Shown here: positions 126 through 28,032 of the stretch, one piece after another
Position numbering within the stretch: the first letter of the stretch is position 1
Layout: every line of letters starts with the position of its first letter
Source of the DNA: a virus
Direction: 5' to 3' (one strand)
Virus record (IMG/VR): IMGVR_UViG_3300010400_000015
Coordinates: 1 to 41,267 of that record
DNA length: 41,267 nucleotides
Position numbers and translations under genes: made by a program
Notes under the pieces: generated by a model
What the model saw: the letters and a program-made list of their open reading frames with translations, nothing else
Told to the model about the DNA's origin: nothing
The model's database searches: none

Positions 126-305
126 TTAAGTGTTGTCTTCGTCTTCCAAAAATTTTGCAATTATTTCAAAATGACTTAGTCTTATAAATTCATTTCGCCT
201 ATTAATTATGGATCTAATAACATGATATGGTAACCCCGTTCGCTCTTGAATGAATGATGTCTTATATTTTGCTAATTTTGCAGCTATTTCTTTAAAATCT
301 AACAT
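126..305 (-). CDS. Small helix-turn-helix transcriptional regulator (Cro/repressor-like)
   Basis: This 59-residue protein begins at the ATG at 305, preceded by a strong GGAGGAAATTA ribosome site; a TTG at 344 is in frame but has no such site. Residues about 13-45 read as a lambda-repressor/Cro-type HTH: a first helix, then FIQERTGLPYHVIRSIINRR as the turn and recognition helix, then LSHFEIIAKFLED as the closing helix. It lacks a cleavage or oligomerisation domain, so it is a minimal Cro-like or MarR-independent DNA binder. It is the first gene of the leftward operon with the helicase and faces the early operon, so it is the obvious candidate to bind the dyads in 306-451. Family assignment is by pattern; DNA binding is likely, its exact target is inferred. 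Confidence 0.8.
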   Translation of the reverse strand: MLDFKEIAAKLAKYKTSFIQERTGLPYHVIRSIINRRNEFIRLSHFEIIAKFLEDEDNT

Positions 306-322
306 TAATTTCCTCCGATTTT

Positions 323-330
323 TGTGATCA
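323..330. promoter_or_regulatory. TGTGATCA octamer, copy 1 (candidate operator)
   Basis: TGTGATCA overlaps the -10 box of the leftward promoter. The same octamer is at 430-437, in the leader of the rightward early operon. Both contain the palindrome TGATCA. One protein bound at both could affect the divergent transcripts; this is inference from position. Confidence 0.4.
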
Positions 331-355
331 TAGCCTATATTCAAAATATTTTCAA
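327..355 (-). promoter_or_regulatory. Leftward sigma70-type promoter for HTH regulator and helicase
   Basis: On the minus strand, TTGAAA (355-350), a 17-base spacer and TATGAT (332-327) lie just upstream of the ribosome site and ATG at 305. The -10 box overlaps a TGTGATCA octamer (323-330) that recurs downstream of the opposing promoter. Confidence 0.7.
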
Positions 356-451: not shown

Positions 452-1393
452 TTGAATATTCTATGTCTAATGAAATTTGGCTCTCATTTATATGGGACAA
501 ATACAGAAAATTCTGACACAGATTATAAAGGTATTTGTTTACCTTCCTTTAGAGATTTAATCTTACAGAATGTGCCTAAATCGATTAATAGCATTACAAA
601 AAAAACATCTAACGCAAAAAATACACCGGATGATATAGATCACGAGATATATTCCATACATTATTTCTTAAAATTAGCCTTAAAGGGAGAGACAGTAGCA
701 ATCGATATGCTCCACGCGCCCGAAGGATGGGAATGCACTACAAGTACTGCCTGGGAATCTTTAAAAGCAGAAAAAGAACATTTCTATACTAAAAATCTTA
801 GAGCCTATATGGGTTATGTTAGGGTTCAAGCAGCTAAATATGGCATTAAAGGCTCACGGCTAAATGCAGCAGAGACATTTAATAACTTCCTTAAAAAACA
901 TTTAGATAGAAATATGAAGTTAATAGAATTATTTGATGATATAGAAGAAACTGAATTTGTCTGTAAAAGAATAATTGCCGAAGCTTCGCAAGACGATAAA
1001 AGGGCGATTGTTGTCTTAGATAAAATATTTATGGTAACAACCCCTATAAAATATATTATTGAATGCTTAGATAAATTTATAGAAGATTTTGGTCACAGAG
1101 CACGACTTGCTAAGGAAAATAAAGGCGTAGACTTTAAAGCAATTTCTCATGCTTTTAGAGCAGCTTATCAATTGGAAGAAATATATACTACTGGCAATTT
1201 GGTATTCCCTCTTAAACAAGCTGAATTTTTACTTGGAATTAAAGAGGGTAAATATCATTATGCTAATGAATTAGCCTCTTTGTTAGAATATATGGTTGAA
1301 AGAATATATAAGTTAGCTGCTGAATCTCACTACCCAGAAGAAGCGGATGTTTCATTTTGGAATGAATGGTTAACGGAGGTATATCTTGATTAA
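452..1393 (+). CDS. Predicted nucleotidyltransferase, GSHLYG/RlaP-like (pol-beta fold)
   Basis: A 313-residue protein. Residues 9-26 carry the minimal nucleotidyltransferase signature: the GS motif as GSHLYG (10-15) followed by SDTDYKG with the paired acids D22 and D24 that would hold the catalytic metals. This matches the family of predicted phage and bacterial nucleotidyltransferases often called RlaP (RNA-ligase-associated); the rest is helical. It would transfer a nucleotide to an unknown acceptor; no RNA ligase is seen nearby. The start chosen is TTG 452, with AAAGGG 9 bases upstream; ATG 470 is in frame but has no ribosome site and would leave almost nothing before the GS motif. It is first in the early operon and overlaps the next gene by 8 bases, so the two are probably translated together. 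Fold assignment is strong, substrate unknown. Confidence 0.85.
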   Translation: MNILCLMKFGSHLYGTNTENSDTDYKGICLPSFRDLILQNVPKSINSITKKTSNAKNTPDDIDHEIYSIHYFLKLALKGETVAIDMLHAPEGWECTTSTAWESLKAEKEHFYTKNLRAYMGYVRVQAAKYGIKGSRLNAAETFNNFLKKHLDRNMKLIELFDDIEETEFVCKRIIAEASQDDKRAIVVLDKIFMVTTPIKYIIECLDKFIEDFGHRARLAKENKGVDFKAISHAFRAAYQLEEIYTTGNLVFPLKQAEFLLGIKEGKYHYANELASLLEYMVERIYKLAAESHYPEEADVSFWNEWLTEVYLD

Positions 1394-1922
1394 AATTGAG
1401 GAGGTAATTGCATACGCCCATAAACATTTTGAATTATGCGATGTAAAAAGAAAATATACTGGCGAATCTTATATTATTCATCCTATTCGCGTAATGCTTT
1501 TAGTTAAAAAAGGTGGTCATACCGATAAAATGTTAAGTGCCGCCATTCTTCATGATAGCGTAGAAGATTGTAAAACAGTACGCATTCTAGAAATATGTAG
1601 AAAATTTGGGATAGAGGTGGCGACTCTTGTTGAAGAGTTAACTGATATATCAAGACCAGAAGATGGTAATAGAGCAATTAGAAAAGAAATAGATAGGAAA
1701 CATATAGCTAAATCATCTCCTCAAGCTCAAGCAATTAAATTAGCCGATTTAATTGATAATGCACAGGATATTGTTATACATGATGAAAATTTTGCAAGAA
1801 TTTATTTAAGAGAAATGCATCTGCTTTTAAAAATTATAGGAAATGTCTGTAGTTTATATGATCTATCGGTAAAAGTTTTAAATGAATGCGCAAATAGACT
1901 AGGAGTAGATCTTCCATCATGA
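1386..1922 (+). CDS. HD-domain small alarmone hydrolase-like protein ((p)ppGpp hydrolase family)
   Basis: A 178-residue single-domain protein of the size of small alarmone hydrolases. It shows the RelA/SpoT-type HD motifs in order: YIIHPIRV (H32), AILHDSVED (H56, D57, E60, D61) and IKLADLIDN (D121). These are the Mn-binding and catalytic positions of (p)ppGpp 3'-pyrophosphohydrolases, and no synthetase or TGS/ACT regions follow. It starts at TTG 1386, with an excellent GGAGG 6 bases upstream inside the nucleotidyltransferase gene. In established work, phage-encoded small alarmone hydrolases can neutralise toxic alarmone synthetases; a role in lowering ppGpp or related nucleotides during infection is inferred here. 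Hydrolysis of another nucleotide is the main alternative. Confidence 0.85.
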   Translation: MIKIEEVIAYAHKHFELCDVKRKYTGESYIIHPIRVMLLVKKGGHTDKMLSAAILHDSVEDCKTVRILEICRKFGIEVATLVEELTDISRPEDGNRAIRKEIDRKHIAKSSPQAQAIKLADLIDNAQDIVIHDENFARIYLREMHLLLKIIGNVCSLYDLSVKVLNECANRLGVDLPS

Positions 1923-2071
1923 TAAATTTTATAATAACAATGATTGCAACTGCTATTGGCGCCTATATTGGGGCCTGTCTAGCTTATAGACAATATATAA
2001 AACGCAGATCACACGATTTATGGAATGAATTACGGAAACTTGGAGCTTTTGATTATTATCAAAATCATTAA
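1919..2071 (+). CDS. 50-residue single-span membrane protein, unknown function
   Basis: The ATG overlaps the previous stop codon as ATGA (1919-1922), a classical coupled start. Residues 2-24 form one hydrophobic helix (IITMIATAIGAYIGACLAY) followed by basic residues KRRSHD, so the C-terminus should be cytoplasmic by the positive-inside rule. The tail is short and charged and ends FDYYQNH. No family recognised. It is one of two small membrane genes between the alarmone hydrolase and the recombination ATPase. ATA codons are heavily used here (four in the first 25), in keeping with the phage-encoded tRNA-Ile2. Confidence 0.7.
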   Translation: MINFIITMIATAIGAYIGACLAYRQYIKRRSHDLWNELRKLGAFDYYQNH

Positions 2072-2088
2072 TTATATGGAGATACTTT

Positions 2089-2286
2089 ATGGCATATTTA
2101 TTAACTTATGCTTTCACAGCTACATTTGGATTTATTGTGTTTGATGTTCATTACCAAATATTAAAAAGAACAACAAAACGAGATTATTTATATTGTGCCA
2201 TACGCGCTTTATTAACTTCATTAGTTGTTACAATTCCTGTCGGAATAATGATTATGATTTTCACATCTTGTATTTTTGGAGGATAG
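2089..2286 (+). CDS. 65-residue two-span membrane protein, unknown function
   Basis: It starts at ATG 2089 behind a TGGAGATACTTT ribosome site. Two hydrophobic stretches, about residues 3-22 and 41-62, flank a basic loop (KRTTKRD), which should face the cytoplasm. The stop codon lies inside the ribosome site of the next gene, so the operon is continuous. No family recognised; with its neighbour at 1919 it may alter the envelope during early infection, but nothing in the sequence shows how. Confidence 0.75.
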   Translation: MAYLLTYAFTATFGFIVFDVHYQILKRTTKRDYLYCAIRALLTSLVVTIPVGIMIMIFTSCIFGG

Positions 2287-2287
2287 A

Positions 2288-3202
2288 ATGAAAATAGAAC
2301 GCGCGATTAAAAGAAAACAGAAGTTACGACTAGGAATTATGGGCGCTTCTGGGTCTGGCAAAACTTACAGCTCATTATTATTAGGACTAGAACTTGGCGA
2401 AAAAGTATGCGTGATTGATACTGAATCAGGAAGCGCTTCTTTATATGCTGATCAATTTAGAGAATATGACACTATTTCATTATCTCCTCCTTTTGAACCC
2501 AGACGATATGTTGAGGCGATGAAATTAATAGAAAATACTGGATATGATGTCATTATTATTGACTCATTAACGCACGAATGGTCGGGCGTTGGCGGCTGCT
2601 TAAGTATGGTTGACGCTATCACTAAAGCATCATCACGTGGAAATAGCTATACTGCATGGGGTAAGGTTACGCCTGAACATAATAAATTGATGGAGGCCAT
2701 TCTAAGCTCTAAATGCCATGTTATCGCTACATTACGAGCTAAAACAGCTTATGACACTGTCCAAGTAAATGGAAAAATGCAGCCACAAAAAGTAGGAATA
2801 GAAGCTGTGCAGCGCGAAGGAATGGAATATGAATTTACCACCCTATTTAGCTTGACTCAAAATCATAGTTTTACTTGCTCAAAAGATCGGACAAAAATCT
2901 TTGACAATCCAGATATCCCGGAACTTTTCACCAAAGATATAGCTATTAAACTTTTAGAATGGTTAAATAAAGGAGAAGAAAATATTGCCACTGAAGAATT
3001 TGTTGACCCACCATCTTTAGAGGATATTTTTAGAGAAAAAGCAAGTGAATTATTCGTTAAAATACGTGATGGGAAAATAGACAAAGAAAAAGGAGCTGAA
3101 GATTGGCATTTATTGCATTCATCTGCAATAATAGATAATCTACCCATTTCGATAGAAATGGAAACCGCTTTTAAGAATATTCTTACTACTAAGGAAAATT
3201 AA
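2288..3202 (+). CDS. Sak4-like RecA-fold ATPase (AAA_24 family), putative recombination protein
   Basis: A 304-residue P-loop ATPase. The Walker A motif is GASGSGKT (19-26), Walker B is DVIIIDS (about 87-93), and a RecA-type core extends to about residue 215. A charged helical C-terminus follows. This layout matches the phage AAA_24/Sak4 group, ATPases that help anneal DNA strands together with a single-strand-binding protein. The neighbouring gene is a DUF669 SSB-like protein, which supports that pairing. ATG 2288 is chosen because GGAGGA lies directly before it; an upstream in-frame ATG at 2276 overlaps that ribosome site and the previous gene. Role in phage recombination/replication is inferred from family and context; other ATPase roles cannot be excluded. 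Confidence 0.85.
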   Translation: MKIERAIKRKQKLRLGIMGASGSGKTYSSLLLGLELGEKVCVIDTESGSASLYADQFREYDTISLSPPFEPRRYVEAMKLIENTGYDVIIIDSLTHEWSGVGGCLSMVDAITKASSRGNSYTAWGKVTPEHNKLMEAILSSKCHVIATLRAKTAYDTVQVNGKMQPQKVGIEAVQREGMEYEFTTLFSLTQNHSFTCSKDRTKIFDNPDIPELFTKDIAIKLLEWLNKGEENIATEEFVDPPSLEDIFREKASELFVKIRDGKIDKEKGAEDWHLLHSSAIIDNLPISIEMETAFKNILTTKEN

Positions 3203-3643
3203 ATGACTGATACGTTAGATTGGGCTGGTCCTTATGAAGAACCGCCGGAATATAATAGAAAATTAATTCCACGAGGTCTTTATAAGGCCATTATTCATGA
3301 CTGTAAAAATCTCATAGATGAGAAAGCGGATGCTAAATATACTTCTATTATATGGCGTATTCCAGCTCAGGGAAATTTCATGTTCGAACAACGCTGTTAT
3401 TATGCTGGTAAAACTGATGTGGCTCATAAAATATCTAAAGATACTATTAATAGGCTTAGATTAGAAGCAGGGATGAAAGATGCTAGCGCTCCCCAAGAGT
3501 TTATAGGTGCCGTAGTCGCTATTTATGTTAAAAATGATGGTAAATTCAATAATGTTTCAAATATTTTTGATATTCAAAAACATCCTGAATTAGATGAAAA
3601 GGTGGCTAATATTGTTCGCGCAAATGAGAGCATACCATGGTAA
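3203..3643 (+). CDS. DUF669-like protein, putative single-strand DNA-binding partner
   Basis: A 146-residue protein whose ATG directly follows the stop codon of the ATPase gene. The N-terminal part (DTLDWAGPYEEPPEYNRKLIPRG) followed by a beta-rich body and a helix DTINRLRLEAG looks like the DUF669 group of phage proteins commonly found next to Sak4 or other recombination ATPases and thought to act as SSB-like factors. The C-terminus, NESIPW, is short and aromatic, resembling SSB tails that recruit partners. Family assignment is by pattern and context. It overlaps the next small gene by 7 bases. Confidence 0.75.
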   Translation: MTDTLDWAGPYEEPPEYNRKLIPRGLYKAIIHDCKNLIDEKADAKYTSIIWRIPAQGNFMFEQRCYYAGKTDVAHKISKDTINRLRLEAGMKDASAPQEFIGAVVAIYVKNDGKFNNVSNIFDIQKHPELDEKVANIVRANESIPW

Positions 3644-3813
3644 TAGATGATCTAATACAAAATGAAGGACAATTAATCCTCACTCCTCTTAGAGACAAAA
3701 TGCTTATTGAAATAGCTTCTGGCATTCGGGATATTGTGATAATACTTGAAGAAATAAAATATGAGTTAGGTTGTCTAAGAATTGATTATCAGCATAATAA
3801 TGAACGGAGTTAA
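3637..3813 (+). CDS. 58-residue hypothetical protein
   Basis: It starts at ATG 3637 inside the last codons of the SSB-like gene, in another frame, and ends two bases before the next ATG. It is predicted to be largely helical, with a central amphipathic stretch LIEIASGIRDIVIILEEIKYELG. No membrane span, cysteine cluster or known motif is seen. The continuous spacing with both neighbours is the main support. Confidence 0.65.
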   Translation: MVIDDLIQNEGQLILTPLRDKMLIEIASGIRDIVIILEEIKYELGCLRIDYQHNNERS

Positions 3814-3815
3814 AT

Positions 3816-4637
3816 ATGAATAAAGATTTCCTTGGTGTTAATCTTACCGATGCCGAAAAAAGATGGCTGCTACATATAATTGGAGATAAACAAACTGTGG
3901 AATTTGATGTAAATCACTTAAAAGAAAAACTGGAATTTAAAGATAAAAATTTCCTAGAAATTAATTTTGATGATTGCGAAAAAAGAATCCTAATTGAATT
4001 GCTCGAAAGAGAAAGGTGCAACTCTTCTTTTCAGGAAACCCGTGATTTTCCTTCCGAAATTCTCTATCGAGCTGAATGTGAAATTATAAAAGTTCAATTA
4101 AAATTGATAACTGACACCCCAAAACTGTGCATTTTTAGATATCAAATTGATATTTTATTAAAATTAATCGATGAAATTATCGTTAAAGAGTCCGACACAT
4201 CCACTATTCGTTTCTATGTTGAACACTGCAAAATGATCCAAGATAAATTAAAGAAAACAATAGCGGCAGCGGCATTTGTTGGCAGTTCACAAAAACCTTT
4301 AAATATGTATGAAACAACATTAAAAGAAACGAATTGGTATCTTAAACCTAAAGCAGGTGATAAAATAAATATTATTACTCCAGATGGAATGCGCTATGAT
4401 TTTTATATTAATGAAAATGGCATAAAATATAAAAAAGCGTCTATCGCTCCCTATCTTGAAAAAATATCGCCAAACATTTACCTTTCTAAAGAAGAAATAG
4501 ATGTTGTATTAGCAGATTTAAAAGTTCAATTATGCACAAGATGCGCTTTAATTCCTGAAGATATTTCGGCAATCGAATTATTGAAACAAATTATCAACAA
4601 ACTGGAGAATATAAATGAAAATAATGGGGCAAATTAA
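3816..4637 (+). CDS. 273-residue hypothetical protein with an N-terminal internal duplication
   Basis: It starts at ATG 3816, preceded by CGGAGTTAAAT. Two similar segments follow each other: VNLTDAEKRWLLHII (residues 8-22) and INFDDCEKRILIELL (about 49-63), suggesting a duplicated helical unit. A long helical middle leads to a compact C-terminal part (about 175-273) with GDKINIITPDGMRYDFYI. No known family recognised. It sits among early DNA-metabolism genes and overlaps the next gene by 23 bases. Function unknown. Confidence 0.8.
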   Translation: MNKDFLGVNLTDAEKRWLLHIIGDKQTVEFDVNHLKEKLEFKDKNFLEINFDDCEKRILIELLERERCNSSFQETRDFPSEILYRAECEIIKVQLKLITDTPKLCIFRYQIDILLKLIDEIIVKESDTSTIRFYVEHCKMIQDKLKKTIAAAAFVGSSQKPLNMYETTLKETNWYLKPKAGDKINIITPDGMRYDFYINENGIKYKKASIAPYLEKISPNIYLSKEEIDVVLADLKVQLCTRCALIPEDISAIELLKQIINKLENINENNGAN

Positions 4638-4974
4638 AAACGCTTGTTTTGGCTTAGTCCAGATACCTAATAAAGACTTAGCAGGTGGACTGCATCTGGA
4701 GTTTGATTTTGGCGGTGATAATAAAGGCACATATCAACTGATTGAAGATGTATGCGATGATATCGGAGGTGACTTCGAAGTCGATTGCCGAGATTCAATT
4801 CATAAATGCGGAATGTTATTTTTTAGAACAATGGAAATCTTGCAAAAATCCAAATGCGGCCATGTTGAGCTCTTAAAGGGCAAGTTTATACTTGCCGATA
4901 TAGAAGATAATAAAATTAAAGCTATTCAATTCGATTTAAATACCGAGAATAGTCGAGTACTTTTAAATGAGTAG
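4615..4974 (+). CDS. 119-residue hypothetical early protein
   Basis: ATG 4615 follows CTGGAGAATATAA, a good ribosome site located inside the previous gene. The protein is soluble, mixed alpha/beta, and contains GGLHLEFDFGGDNKGTYQLIED and three cysteines at scattered positions. It overlaps the next gene by 8 bases. No family recognised; its place in an unbroken early operon makes it a real gene. Confidence 0.75.
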   Translation: MKIMGQIKNACFGLVQIPNKDLAGGLHLEFDFGGDNKGTYQLIEDVCDDIGGDFEVDCRDSIHKCGMLFFRTMEILQKSKCGHVELLKGKFILADIEDNKIKAIQFDLNTENSRVLLNE

Positions 4975-5338
4975 AGACAATGATTTAATTTGTTCTTATT
5001 TAGATGAAGATTTGTGTGAGTTAGAACTGGATCTCGGGAACGATCAAGAACTTGTACAGTTGCCCGAAGGCGTTTTCAAAGAGATGGATAATCTCAGTCC
5101 TAAAGGTATCAAACGATATCCTATTGTTCTACGTGGAACAGCGGCATTGATTGAAGTAACAGTCTTTCAAAGTTCGACAGTTCCGGAAGGCGCGCGTGAT
5201 ACTGAAGCTTTTTTCATTGAATATGATATGTACGATGTAGATGGGAATCTAGACGATTCCTTGCATAGCGAAATATCCTCCGAAGTACATTCTTTTATTA
5301 ATGACATGATTATTAATGATTTGGCGCCTGATGAATAA
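4967..5338 (+). CDS. 123-residue acidic hypothetical protein
   Basis: It starts at ATG 4967 overlapping the previous stop region and ends where the next ATG begins (TAATG). It is very acidic, with Asp/Glu-rich N- and C-termini (YLDEDLCELELDLGNDQEL and NDLAPDE). Small acidic proteins of this kind in phages sometimes mimic DNA or titrate host DNA-binding proteins, but nothing specific supports that here. No family recognised. Confidence 0.72.
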   Translation: MSRDNDLICSYLDEDLCELELDLGNDQELVQLPEGVFKEMDNLSPKGIKRYPIVLRGTAALIEVTVFQSSTVPEGARDTEAFFIEYDMYDVDGNLDDSLHSEISSEVHSFINDMIINDLAPDE

Positions 5339-5559
5339 TGAAAATTAACATAAAAGTAGAAAAAATCTTAGCTTATATAAACATTCTTACGAATGAAAAT
5401 ATAACAGATGCCGAGAAAATTACTGCTATATGTAATTTGTTCGATCCAGAATGCAAAAGAATTATAACTTATACTGAAAATATTCCTGAAAGAGCAAGAA
5501 ATCAATTGGCGATTAAAGTAGCTCAAACATTAAGCAATCTACCGAATAAAAATAAGTGA
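5338..5559 (+). CDS. 73-residue hypothetical protein
   Basis: Its ATG overlaps the preceding TAA as TAATG, a coupled start. The protein is soluble and helical (KVEKILAYINILTNENITDAEK and ARNQLAIKVAQTLSNL). No motif recognised. It ends 9 bases before the next gene. Confidence 0.7.
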   Translation: MKINIKVEKILAYINILTNENITDAEKITAICNLFDPECKRIITYTENIPERARNQLAIKVAQTLSNLPNKNK

Positions 5560-5568
5560 GATATTGTA

Positions 5569-5949
5569 ATGATTAGAGAATTTGTGGATATGTGGGAAGC
5601 GCGTAAAAATAAATTAAAACTTAAATATTATCATAACTATCCTGCTAGTTATGATGAAATAGTTCAAGATGTTATCGAATTGTTCTGTGTAAATCTAGAT
5701 CAATCAAAAATACATATTATTGATGACGGTGATTTTCAAGGCACTCGTTTATATATAATTCCAGAAAAATGTTACCAACCTTCTCATTATTATTCAATAT
5801 TTGTTGATTATGGCTCATGCTCTGGATGTGATACTTTTGAAAAGCTAATGGAAGAAAATGATGAGAAAATAATTCTCGATGGATTGATGAGTTTGGCTCT
5901 TCATATGGTGCAAGATTTAAAGCTTGTAGGTAATCATAATATAGATTAA
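5569..5949 (+). CDS. Conserved-type phage protein with a YGSCSGCDT motif, unknown function
   Basis: A 126-residue protein. Residues 83-96 read FVDYGSCSGCDTFEKL, a motif I associate with a recurrent group of phage and bacterial hypothetical proteins in which YGSCSGCDT follows a beta strand beginning ...YYSIFVDYG. The two cysteines suggest metal or thiol chemistry, but no activity is established that I know of. It starts at ATG 5569 and its stop codon is immediately followed by the ATG of the nuclease gene. Confidence 0.75.
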   Translation: MIREFVDMWEARKNKLKLKYYHNYPASYDEIVQDVIELFCVNLDQSKIHIIDDGDFQGTRLYIIPEKCYQPSHYYSIFVDYGSCSGCDTFEKLMEENDEKIILDGLMSLALHMVQDLKLVGNHNID

Positions 5950-6387
5950 ATGAATATTAAATCTCTCTCTGAACATGAAGAGCAAAAACTTTTAGTAGAT
6001 ATTTTTCATTTGAAATATAAGGGCGTTCTTATCCATGCCATAGCAAATGGCGGTCATCGTCATATAGCTGTCGCAGTCAAATTAAAAGCCGAAGGGGTTT
6101 TAAGTGGCATTCCTGATTTGTATATTCCAGCATGGAATTTATGGATAGAAGTAAAAACTACAACCGGAAAATTAAGTCACGCACAAAAACAATGTATAGC
6201 TTATCTTAAAAGTATAGGCGATACTGTTATCGTAGCTTATGGCTCAGATGATGGCCTTAATAAAATTAATGAGTTTCTAGCGCAGTTTCCTCGCGGGGGT
6301 CCGGATAAAATTTCTTTGAAAGCTCAAAATGACCTAAATCTTGCAGTTTTCCAGCTGCTCCTTTCCAGTCTCCACCCCATACAATAG
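5950..6387 (+). CDS. VRR-NUC domain nuclease
   Basis: A 145-residue protein. The VRR-NUC (PD-(D/E)XK-type) core covers about residues 8-112: the E/Q-rich first helix EHEEQKLLVDIF, then NGGHRH, SGIPDLYIP with the catalytic D, WIEVKT with the catalytic E-x-K, and the helix GKLSHAQKQCIAYL. Members are structure-specific or Holliday-type nucleases; in phages they accompany replication and recombination genes, as here. The start is the ATG directly after the previous stop. The last 40 codons (6266-6387) lie on the opposite strand of the endolysin gene and are outside the nuclease core, so the C-terminus has been shaped by that overlap or is a read-through extension. Confidence 0.88.
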   Translation: MNIKSLSEHEEQKLLVDIFHLKYKGVLIHAIANGGHRHIAVAVKLKAEGVLSGIPDLYIPAWNLWIEVKTTTGKLSHAQKQCIAYLKSIGDTVIVAYGSDDGLNKINEFLAQFPRGGPDKISLKAQNDLNLAVFQLLLSSLHPIQ

Positions 6388-8551: not shown

Positions 8552-9513
8552 TATGTCACCTTTTCAAGTAAAAGCGTCAAAGTTAAGCTACCGGCCGTAT
8601 AGTCTGTAGTACCACCTGAATATGCTATAAACAACGTTCCAGTGGTTTGTCTATCAATCGCAACAGATGCTGGGAAAGGCATATTAGTTGCAGTTCCCCA
8701 AACAAGATTAACCGCAGCTTGAGCAATTGCTGCTGGAATAACTGTGTATACTCCTGTACCATCAGAAACTTGGATAAGTCTATTACCACCCCCGCCAGAG
8801 AAGTTAGTGCCACCAGAATTAAGCCACATATTGCGTACTTTATAACCACCACCTTGAACAATTCCTAAAGCTTGGGCGCTAGCTAAATCAGTATGCGTAA
8901 AAGTAATGTCATAGGTTTTTAATGCTGCAATATCACCAACATTAGAAGCGCTCGTTGTCAACACAGTTTGATTAGCGGACGCAGCATCGCCGAATGTATA
9001 AACAGTATCTTGATCTAAATCATCAAAATTTTGAAAAGTTGCAGTAAAATCGCCATTATCACAATCAACCGCCTGCATAATCATTCGGCCTTTACCCGCG
9101 GTTGGAGGATAAGAAATAAATCCACCCTCAATATCACCATCACCCGCCTGGATACTGCCTGGATTTCTTGCAATCGTAGCACCATCTTTTAGCGTCCCAT
9201 CTGTTCCATAGAAAACCGCAATATCATTAACGACTACGGGGAGCCCTTCAACTGTTCCAGGCGCTCCTTCCTGAACCAAGCTAATAACACCAGCCCCATC
9301 AATACTAATACCATATTGAGATGTTTTCTTATCCGTCGTATAAACAAGTGCCATTTGTTTTTCACTAAATTGAGCTGTTGTTTGATTTAAATACCCAGGC
9401 ACTGAAACAGTTGCATCTGTATCATCTGTATCAATATGGACAAATGATGGATTGACACCCACAGAACCCAATTCAGATGCAGGGAATAAAGGGGTTATTT
9501 GTAAAATTGCCAT
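8551..9513 (-). CDS. Fibre/virion surface protein, smaller paralogue (320 aa)
   Basis: ATG 9513 follows AAGAGGATTTTAAA. It is beta-rich and shares its N-terminal block (MAILQITPLFPASE, FSEKQMALVYTTDKKTSQYG) and C-terminal block (GGGYKVRNMWLNSGGTNFSGGGGNR, LLLEKVT) with the 504-residue product downstream. It lacks that protein's duplicated middle, so it is either the ancestral form or a deletion derivative. Together they look like alternative or hetero-oligomeric surface proteins fed from the late operon. No enzymatic motif is seen. Confidence 0.75.
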   Translation of the reverse strand: MAILQITPLFPASELGSVGVNPSFVHIDTDDTDATVSVPGYLNQTTAQFSEKQMALVYTTDKKTSQYGISIDGAGVISLVQEGAPGTVEGLPVVVNDIAVFYGTDGTLKDGATIARNPGSIQAGDGDIEGGFISYPPTAGKGRMIMQAVDCDNGDFTATFQNFDDLDQDTVYTFGDAASANQTVLTTSASNVGDIAALKTYDITFTHTDLASAQALGIVQGGGYKVRNMWLNSGGTNFSGGGGNRLIQVSDGTGVYTVIPAAIAQAAVNLVWGTATNMPFPASVAIDRQTTGTLFIAYSGGTTDYTAGSLTLTLLLEKVT

Positions 9514-9542
9514 TTTAAAATCCTCTTGTTAAACATAATTAA

Positions 9543-9548
9543 ATTATA
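9543..9548 (-). promoter_or_regulatory. Possible internal -10 box before the fibre-lysis genes (weak)
   Basis: TATAAT on the minus strand in the 52-base gap 9514-9565, the largest gap of the fibre region. No good -35 hexamer is found at 16-18 bases upstream (best CTGTAA), so this is only a candidate for extra transcription of the two paralogues and lysis genes. Confidence 0.25.
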
Positions 9549-9565
9549 CAGTAAATTGACCTAAT

Positions 9566-9919
9566 TTACAGCGCTTTATATTTCTTCTCAATTAATGCCA
9601 ATTTAGCCTTAATGGTCAAAAATGATACGGCCTGTGGTATTTCGAACCTATCAGCTAAAATTGTAAGTTCATCTGTTACAGCCTCTAACCATTCGTGAAT
9701 ATCTGGTAATTCACTTTTTTTTTGCAACTCCAAATCACGTTTGCCTTGAAATTGGACAAAGTCGGCAGCTGCCTTTTCCATTTCTTCATTAGTTGGCGGT
9801 GTTTCAGGCTTATGAAATATAATATCTAGACCTTCAAGTTTGATACCATGCTCATATTCGATATCACCTTTGATTGTCATCTCAATGCCCATGAACGAAA
9901 ACAATGTACTTAATTTCAT
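9566..9919 (-). CDS. 117-residue hypothetical protein, possible fibre-assembly or structural accessory
   Basis: ATG 9919 follows a strong AGGAGATTTT ribosome site. The N-terminal ~30 residues are beta-like (MTIKGDIEYEHGIKLEGLDIIF); the rest is highly helical with charged repeats (NEEMEKAAADFVQFQGKRDLELQKK). It lies between two fibre paralogue groups. Small helical proteins in this position are often fibre chaperones, but there is no recognisable family here, so that is only context. Confidence 0.7.
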   Translation of the reverse strand: MKLSTLFSFMGIEMTIKGDIEYEHGIKLEGLDIIFHKPETPPTNEEMEKAAADFVQFQGKRDLELQKKSELPDIHEWLEAVTDELTILADRFEIPQAVSFLTIKAKLALIEKKYKAL

Positions 9920-9927
9920 AAAATCTC

Positions 9928-10710
9928 CTAAACGAATTCAATAACCATAATAAAAGCAGGAACTGTAGAGCCATCAAAAGTTGTTGTTGTGTTTGTATTA
10001 TTTGTAGCCATTCGCAATGTGTAAGTGTGCGTAGATGTGTCGTTAGATATTTCAGTCCCAGATAAATTAACGCATTCATATTGCGGCACCGCATTCGTAC
10101 CGGGAGTATTGTTAACAACTCTGCCGCAGTTAGCCGTTGCGATTACCGCTGGGGTTCCGGTACTCCTATTAATATCAAATTTGAATATACGTGTCGCAGG
10201 GCTTGCTGCTGTTCTTTCATTTTTAGCAAATCCACCCGCTATTATCCATAAAGTATTACTACCTCCAGCCGGTGTATAGTTAATAGTTAACGAAGTGTTA
10301 ACCTGACTAGAGCTTGTCGTAGTATCTGTTGCTGAGGATGTCGCATAAGCAGCTTTTATTATTTTTGTATTTTGAGTTAATGGTGTACTTAATGTAAATT
10401 TACTTGATGCAGAGTTATAAGTTAAAATTCTTCCATCAGTTGTTGACAAATCAGCAGCTGGAATGCTAAATGCATATAGTGTATTTGTGCCATCATTAAA
10501 TTGCGGTAATGGCGTCATGCTAGTAATGCTGGTGTCAATTGCTATTTGTCCAGCTGATGTGGTTGTCGGAGCCCCGCTATTAGGGATTTCAAATGTTAAA
10601 GCACCACTGCAATCAATTGTTCCTGTTACTGTGGAAGAATCACTCCCAACAATTGATCCCGTGCCGGTTGCTCCTGATAAATTGCTTCCAAAAACATTGA
10701 TATTTGTCAT
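9928..10710 (-). CDS. Fibre paralogue 3 of a tandem triplet (260 aa)
   Basis: It begins at ATG 10710, overlapping the upstream stop as ATGA. The N-terminal ~110 residues have the shared pattern of the triplet: MTxINxxG...LSGxTGxxxxVGS, then (S)GAPTTTSAGQIAIDTS, a line naming YDG/NDGTxxxY, and ADxxxTDGxxxxYNxASSKF. The C-terminal half is a beta-rich domain with TYTLRMATNNTNTTTTFDGSTVPAFIMVIEFV, also shared in outline. Low charge, Thr/Ser/Asn rich, no enzyme motif. It probably forms or decorates the distal tail. Relationship to the two neighbours is seen directly; receptor binding is inference. Confidence 0.75.
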   Translation of the reverse strand: MTNINVFGSNLSGATGTGSIVGSDSSTVTGTIDCSGALTFEIPNSGAPTTTSAGQIAIDTSITSMTPLPQFNDGTNTLYAFSIPAADLSTTDGRILTYNSASSKFTLSTPLTQNTKIIKAAYATSSATDTTTSSSQVNTSLTINYTPAGGSNTLWIIAGGFAKNERTAASPATRIFKFDINRSTGTPAVIATANCGRVVNNTPGTNAVPQYECVNLSGTEISNDTSTHTYTLRMATNNTNTTTTFDGSTVPAFIMVIEFV

Positions 10711-27735: not shown

Positions 27736-27966
27736 GTGGGCGAAAGTATAAGCTCGGCAGAATTTGGTCGCTGGATTAGATGTGGTGTTTGTTTAAATGA
27801 AAGAAATGCTCTTGAACAAACAGTATTTTGCTTAGAAGGCGATAAAGAAACCATGAAGATATGCATGCAATGCATTATTGATACGATTAAATGGATTTAT
27901 GATAAAAGAAAAGATGAATCTTTAAGAAGGAAGAATTGGTGGAGATCGCTTTTTTCTGGCCTATAG
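27736..27966 (+). CDS. 76-residue zinc-knuckle-like protein whose stop codon lies inside the tRNA gene
   Basis: Starts at GTG 27736 after GTGAGGATATATA. Cysteines are arranged as CGVCLNE ... CLEGD ... CMQC, which could bind zinc, followed by a basic, Trp-rich C-terminus (KDESLRRKNWWRSLFSGL). No family recognised. Its last codons (TCTGGCCTATAG) overlap the first 10 bases of the tRNA gene, so translation of its end and tRNA maturation compete for the same RNA bases. Confidence 0.65.
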   Translation: MGESISSAEFGRWIRCGVCLNERNALEQTVFCLEGDKETMKICMQCIIDTIKWIYDKRKDESLRRKNWWRSLFSGL

Positions 27967-28032
27967 CTCAGTGGTTAGAGCAGAGAACTCATAATTCTAC
28001 GGTCGCAGGTTCAAGTCCTGTTAGGCCAACCA
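27957..28032 (+). tRNA. tRNA with CAU anticodon, most likely tRNA-Ile2 (CAU, lysidine-modified)
   Basis: A full cloverleaf is visible: acceptor stem TGGCCTA/TAGGCCA fully paired, D-arm GCTC...GAGC, anticodon loop CTCATAA, variable CGGTC, T-arm GCAGG-TTCAAGT-CCTGT, encoded CCA. The anticodon is CAU. The acceptor T1-A72 pair excludes initiator tRNA. The D-arm, GTCGC and TTCAAGTCC follow bacterial tRNA-Ile2 more than elongator tRNA-Met, so it probably reads AUA after lysidine modification by the host enzyme. Only the 27-43 pair of the anticodon stem is mismatched. AUA is common in this genome, which gives it a use. Confidence 0.93.

Follow-up and report, generated by a model that had tools for sequence, protein, structure and literature searches.

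A nucleotidyltransferase (NTase) gene and an HD-domain gene overlap near one end of the 41,267-base virus contig analysed here (the window), and their association recurs in other genomes as a non-obligatory trait of certain lineages, many of them represented solely by metagenomic sequences or prophages. The HD protein is predicted to be a phage-type small alarmone hydrolase (SAH), and the NTase probably belongs to a family of predicted RNA-repair enzymes. The pairing, together with the RNA-repair genes found near a number of these loci, speaks for a pair that repairs RNA ends (mainly those of tRNA) and counters host defence, in preference to one that produces and breaks down a signal. We give roughly an even chance to the reading that the two proteins form a phage module which reverses the damage that defence systems inflict on RNA ends, with the 3' ends of tRNA as the likeliest target.

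Organization of the locus

The features of the locus are presented in Table 1. The two open reading frames occupy the positions originally assigned to them and share 8 bases, and the strong GGAGGT motif inside the NTase gene favours coupled translation of the HD gene. The pair had also been described as the first genes of an early operon. This is plausible, since the pair does head a run of plus-strand genes, divergent from a small ORF on the minus strand, but the record gives no completeness for the contig. Promoter-like matches in the window were in no excess over a shuffled background.

Table 1. Features of the NTase-SAH locus and of a tRNA gene in the window
Feature	Position	Strand	Details
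Small divergent ORF, possibly an HTH regulator	126..344	-	72 aa; without family match
Nucleotidyltransferase, probably of the RlaP family (T4 NrdC.11 / phrog_388)	452..1393	+	313 aa, TTG start; GSHLYG, D22, D24, D63, E65
Shine-Dalgarno sequence GGAGGT of the HD gene	1375..1380	+	Inside the NTase coding end, 5 bases 5' of the HD start; read directly
Predicted small alarmone hydrolase (RelA/SpoT-type HD, PaSpo-like)	1386..1922	+	178 aa, TTG start; R22, H32, H56-D57, E60-D61, D121, N125
AAA_24 / Sak4-like recombination ATPase (phrog_1366)	2276..3202	+	Downstream of the pair, same gene run
tRNA-Met(CAT) gene, phage-encoded	27957..28032	+

The nucleotidyltransferase

The NTase matches PF10127 (RlaP; E 4e-13, 50.1 bits against a cut-off of 23) and, over its full length, phrog_388 (E 1.3e-89), and it carries the GS, DxD and third acidic position of the pol-beta type that accompany a PF10127 match in RlaP proteins. 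Across 40 diverse homologues G10, D22 and D24 are invariant and D63 and E65 nearly so, in agreement with the initial recognition of a GSHLYG-type nucleotidyltransferase with D22/D24. In view of this conservation, the protein is expected to be enzymatically active. It shares approximately 40% identity with many homologues of T4-like phages, and it is probably a member of the RlaP / T4 NrdC.11 family, whose enzymes are predicted to act in RNA repair. Relatives were found in 1,470 of 50,697 cultured-phage records; most of these are T4-like phages, in which the gene bears the name nrdC.11. Unlike the window NTase gene, that of T4 has no adjacent SAH gene.

The AF2 model is confident (pLDDT 91.9) but shows only weak matches to solved structures, the TM score reaching at most 0.43 among HalB, Tam41 and aminoglycoside NTases, so the structure indicates a pol-beta-type NTase and leaves its substrate unfixed. 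A sequence search of the PDB gave nothing usable. Examination of the protein for the PolyA_pol head and RNA-binding domain of CCA-adding enzymes yielded the RlaP match only.

It had been pointed out that NTase-fold proteins are common in toxin-antitoxin and defence systems, and several such candidates were considered. The MntA-type antitoxin model (NF047752) scored 13 bits against a cut-off of 60 (E 0.07), PADLOC gave no match to a known defence-system protein, and no match supported a CD-NTase-like protein. Nor does the NTase match a RelA/SpoT synthetase family, and its similarity to the CapRel fold is slight (fold probability 0.14, TM 0.10).

The HD protein

The HD protein matches HD_4 above its cut-off (E 6.4e-13) and the RelA/SpoT model (E 2.8e-17) below the whole-protein cut-off, because the hydrolase domain alone is present. 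Residues R22, H32, H56-D57, E60-D61, D121 and N125 align with those of human MESH1 and are invariant in 29 homologues, which bears out the earlier statement that all of the RelA/SpoT-type hydrolase residues (H32, H56-D57, D121) are in place. The predicted structure (pLDDT 96.6) resembles MESH1 most closely among PDB entries (TM 0.82-0.83), followed by bacterial SAHs. With these residues, a length of 178 aa and no synthetase domain, the protein has the features of an SAH, and its assignment to the phage-type SAHs is supported by both the profile matches and the model.

Among characterized phage relatives, the closest is PaSpo of Salmonella phage SSU5 (SSU5_099), with 47% identity over residues 21-151 and 39% over the full alignment. 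Both are phage proteins with the same HD active site and an LTxxxRPxDGNR segment; unlike the window SAH gene, the PaSpo gene is not accompanied by RlaP within the surrounding stretch that was inspected, and the C-terminus of PaSpo is longer. Relatives of the SAH occur in 177 of the 50,697 cultured-phage records. In one locus, that of Komagataeibacter phage phiKM1 (L005, 4391-5570), a HicA/HicB toxin-antitoxin pair is followed directly by the SAH gene.

Recurrence of the pair

Relatives of both proteins were gathered from IMG/VR and GTDB genomes, and every locus was searched with both profiles. Alignments were needed as queries in IMG/VR, where single sequences returned one relative each. The NTases were clustered at 80% identity into 191 clusters, 187 of them without annotated reference phages. 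The original prediction had been made to depend on a conserved neighbourhood elsewhere, and such a neighbourhood exists: an SAH gene lies within 600 bp of the NTase gene in 17 of the 191 clusters and within 2 kb in two more. When the annotated reference phages are excluded, an SAH gene is found within 1.5 kb in 19 of 187 clusters. Most NTase clusters have no SAH neighbour. In the 29 loci that hold both genes, the two are invariably co-oriented (29 of 29) and are adjacent in 17, compared to about 2.3 expected under uniform placement, a generous null that ignores the clustering of phage genes by function.

Both gene orders, NTase-SAH and SAH-NTase, occur among the pairs. Across the NTase tree, at least 11 switches of the pairing label are counted, and among the paired loci there are six switches of order state (NTase-SAH, SAH-NTase or fused); the identity between paired NTases falls as low as 32%. 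Support in the HD tree is low, and that tree carries little information on a single origin. One of the locus scans was seeded with paired members and is therefore biased in its sampling; a scan started from the window together with unselected phages yielded, among 80 loci, three pairs at close distance (L126, L141 and L157), along with further co-occurrences at distances of 4-10 kb. Three NTase loci, apparently already seen, were found in a sample of 397 genomes of one bacterial order, with one SAH and one RtcB at short range. FBKp34 encodes another HD_4-like protein at a distance of 2.8 kb and in the opposite orientation, but it is too divergent to be counted as the same pair.

Two loci may have received insertions at the pair: an HNH-type ORF (9390-10007) lies between the SAH and NTase genes of L157, and an HNH-like stretch precedes the SAH gene of L244 on its 5' side. 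Both could be homing elements.

In a single metagenomic contig (L249, IMGVR_UViG_3300001083_000002), one ORF consists of a whole NTase followed by a whole SAH, with both active sites retained and with RlaP and HD_4 Pfam matches that both exceed the cut-off; being limited to one contig, the fusion could also reflect an assembly or indel error. The 3' end of this ORF is overlapped by a tRNA-His gene (2620-2693).

Among cultured phages, the fused protein as query matched 1,675 places in 1,670 records, so that at most about five records hold both genes, which is close to independence for 1,470 NTase and 177 SAH carriers. With this query, none of the 50,697 records contained the two genes side by side, and plasmids were likewise without an adjacent pair.

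The RNA-repair neighbourhood

The neighbours of the NTase gene offer a better internal control than uniform placement: within 5 kb, the commonest real gene families are SAH and RtcB, with 21-22 loci each (the larger groups in this count are frames that overlap the NTase itself). RtcB (PF01139) is found at this distance in 21 of the 187 NTase clusters, a metallophosphoesterase in 13, and Thg1 (PF04446) and RNA ligase (PF09414) in seven each. The corresponding numbers for the 70 SAH clusters that are free of an NTase are one for RtcB, none for Thg1 and one for RNA ligase. In L077 and L171, RtcB is located upstream of the NTase-SAH pair itself. Profile scans of the window for RNA ligase, RtcB and Thg1 found none of the three. 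A set of related phages (L119, L120, L121, L128, L142, L145 and L155) has RtcB at roughly 2 kb and SAH at roughly 8-9 kb from its NTase gene, and L119 and L121 contain many tRNA genes.

In about 16 other NTase clusters a different, CCA-enzyme-like HD protein (PF01966) abuts the NTase, nearly always downstream and overlapping (among others in L091, L094, L096, L097, L099, L100, L102, L104, L107, L113, L114, L115, L117 and L136). Complete CCA-adding enzymes that adjoin RlaP in Synergistaceae contigs (L222 and L237) have an HD domain to which the profile of this HD type also extends; as the profile was an iterated one, the match is suggestive of kinship between the two HD types. One of these loci, L237 (JAISWV010000043.1, a Synergistaceae MAG; 1046-6376), has its genes in the following order, all on the same strand: an AAA_33 kinase, Thg1, an HD_4 protein bearing residues of the RelA/SpoT type, a CCA-adding enzyme and a double-length RlaP. 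It has the appearance of a compact tRNA-repair operon and is the best indication that hydrolases of the RelA/SpoT type can form part of an RNA-repair operon.

Relation to known systems

The combination had been put forward as one that is not an established phage system, and our literature search, the scope of which did not include the 2016 paper that defined RlaP, likewise found no account of the NTase-SAH pair. The separate parts have been treated before. Restoration of nucleotides in RNA repair has been predicted for RlaP, and in jumbo phages the HD-alarmone phosphodiesterases and the RNA-repair systems have both been predicted to act in counter-defence; in the part of that account available to us the phosphodiesterase and RlaP are kept separate, and neither their pairing nor their fusion is reported (PMC7824862).

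The SSU5 enzyme PaSpo is reported to remove the tRNA modification installed by FaRel2, i.e., the pyrophosphate that toxic alarmone synthetases place on tRNA CCA ends (PMC11559606). PaSpo was also co-expressed with CapRel during the purification of the latter (PMC9712102). In the FaRel / ATfaRel operon, an SAH neutralizes the products of its neighbour's chemistry (PMC11782079). As in that toxSAS operon, the window SAH gene is found beside a partner gene; the partner, however, is an RlaP protein and not a RelA/SpoT-type synthetase, so the pair is not a toxSAS by composition. In CCA-adding enzymes, such as those of E. coli and M. tuberculosis, an NTase is combined with a C-terminal HD domain; this domain shows phosphatase activity, and its presumed task is the cleaning of tRNA 3' ends (PMC10673834). 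The window pair resembles them in this combination and differs from them in its NTase family, in its HD subfamily and in being, as usual for the pair, two genes.

Proposed function and alternatives

According to our proposal, the SAH-type HD protein would remove the 3'-pyrophosphate with which toxic alarmone synthetases of the FaRel2 or CapRel type mark the CCA ends of tRNA, and would probably hydrolyse (p)ppGpp or (p)ppApp as well, while the RlaP-family NTase would restore nucleotides lost from RNA 3' ends. Since CCA-adding enzymes join an NTase to an end-cleaning HD domain, and since it is this 3' end that toxSAS enzymes block with pyrophosphate, the simplest reading is that the SAH unblocks the end and RlaP rebuilds it. 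Family membership, intact active sites, the conserved pairing, one fusion and the RNA-repair neighbourhood form the basis of this proposal, and from them we infer the substrates of both proteins, a shared RNA target and a role in counter-defence during infection. The specific version, in which an alarmone hydrolase has turned into an RNA-repair enzyme of a tRNA 3'-end repair module, the SAH stripping defence-made pyrophosphate from the CCA end and RlaP rebuilding that end, with both at times fused into a single protein, is more tentative, and we consider its chance of being correct to be somewhat below even.

The strongest competitor, which we regard as a real but lesser possibility, holds that the two are independent counter-defence genes in a shared, defence-facing early operon, brought together by the clustering of accessory genes: the SAH would lower (p)ppGpp or (p)ppApp and keep the host permissive, and RlaP would repair RNA separately. 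The cultured phages agree with it, as each family is common there alone and the two almost never occur together, and so does the separate handling of the two systems in the available part of the jumbo-phage account (PMC7824862). Independence is harder to reconcile with the tie between SAH and RtcB as commonest NTase neighbours, with the occurrence of both gene orders, the repeated switches of pairing across the NTase tree and a fusion, or with the RelA/SpoT-type HD protein inside the tRNA-repair operon of L237.

It had also been suggested that the pair makes and removes a nucleotide signal, and a wider form of this reading has the HD protein reverse either a signal or a target modification for which the NTase is responsible, as in bifunctional RelA/SpoT enzymes or a toxin-antitoxin pair. 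Opposed activities in adjacent or fused genes do recall the RelA/SpoT architecture, and the weak fold matches include HalB, a defence-system NTase solved with oligodeoxyadenylate. The pair, however, lacks the synthetase domain that accompanies the HD domain in RelA/SpoT, the NTase falling in the RlaP family and outside that of the synthetases; CapRel is barely matched and PADLOC not at all, and the NTase occurs mostly without an SAH, in the company of RtcB, Thg1, RNA ligase and CCA-type HD proteins. We therefore consider a signal made by the NTase for the HD protein to remove improbable. The counter-defence role, offered as the other option in the original prediction, is the better reading.

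A role as NADPH or 3'-phosphonucleotide phosphatase has been proposed for metazoan MESH1, and the MESH1 structures closest to the HD model carry bound NADPH or PAPS; a chiefly metabolic phosphatase that serves the phage nucleotide pool, with the NTase pairing as secondary, is nevertheless very unlikely, since PaSpo, the closest characterized phage relative, has pyrophosphorylated tRNA as a substrate and works against toxSAS enzymes, and the RNA-repair neighbourhood would be left unexplained.

Implications

The recurring linkage of two widespread phage families provides a substrate hypothesis for each of them, namely damaged or pyrophosphorylated tRNA 3' ends. If the end-repair reading is correct, one module would tie the RNA repair of phages to both toxSAS and tRNA-cleaving defence, and the presence of an alarmone hydrolase in some phages that have no synthetase would be explained. 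Under the more specific and more tentative version, many phage "alarmone hydrolases" would be RNA-repair enzymes rather than regulators of the stringent response.
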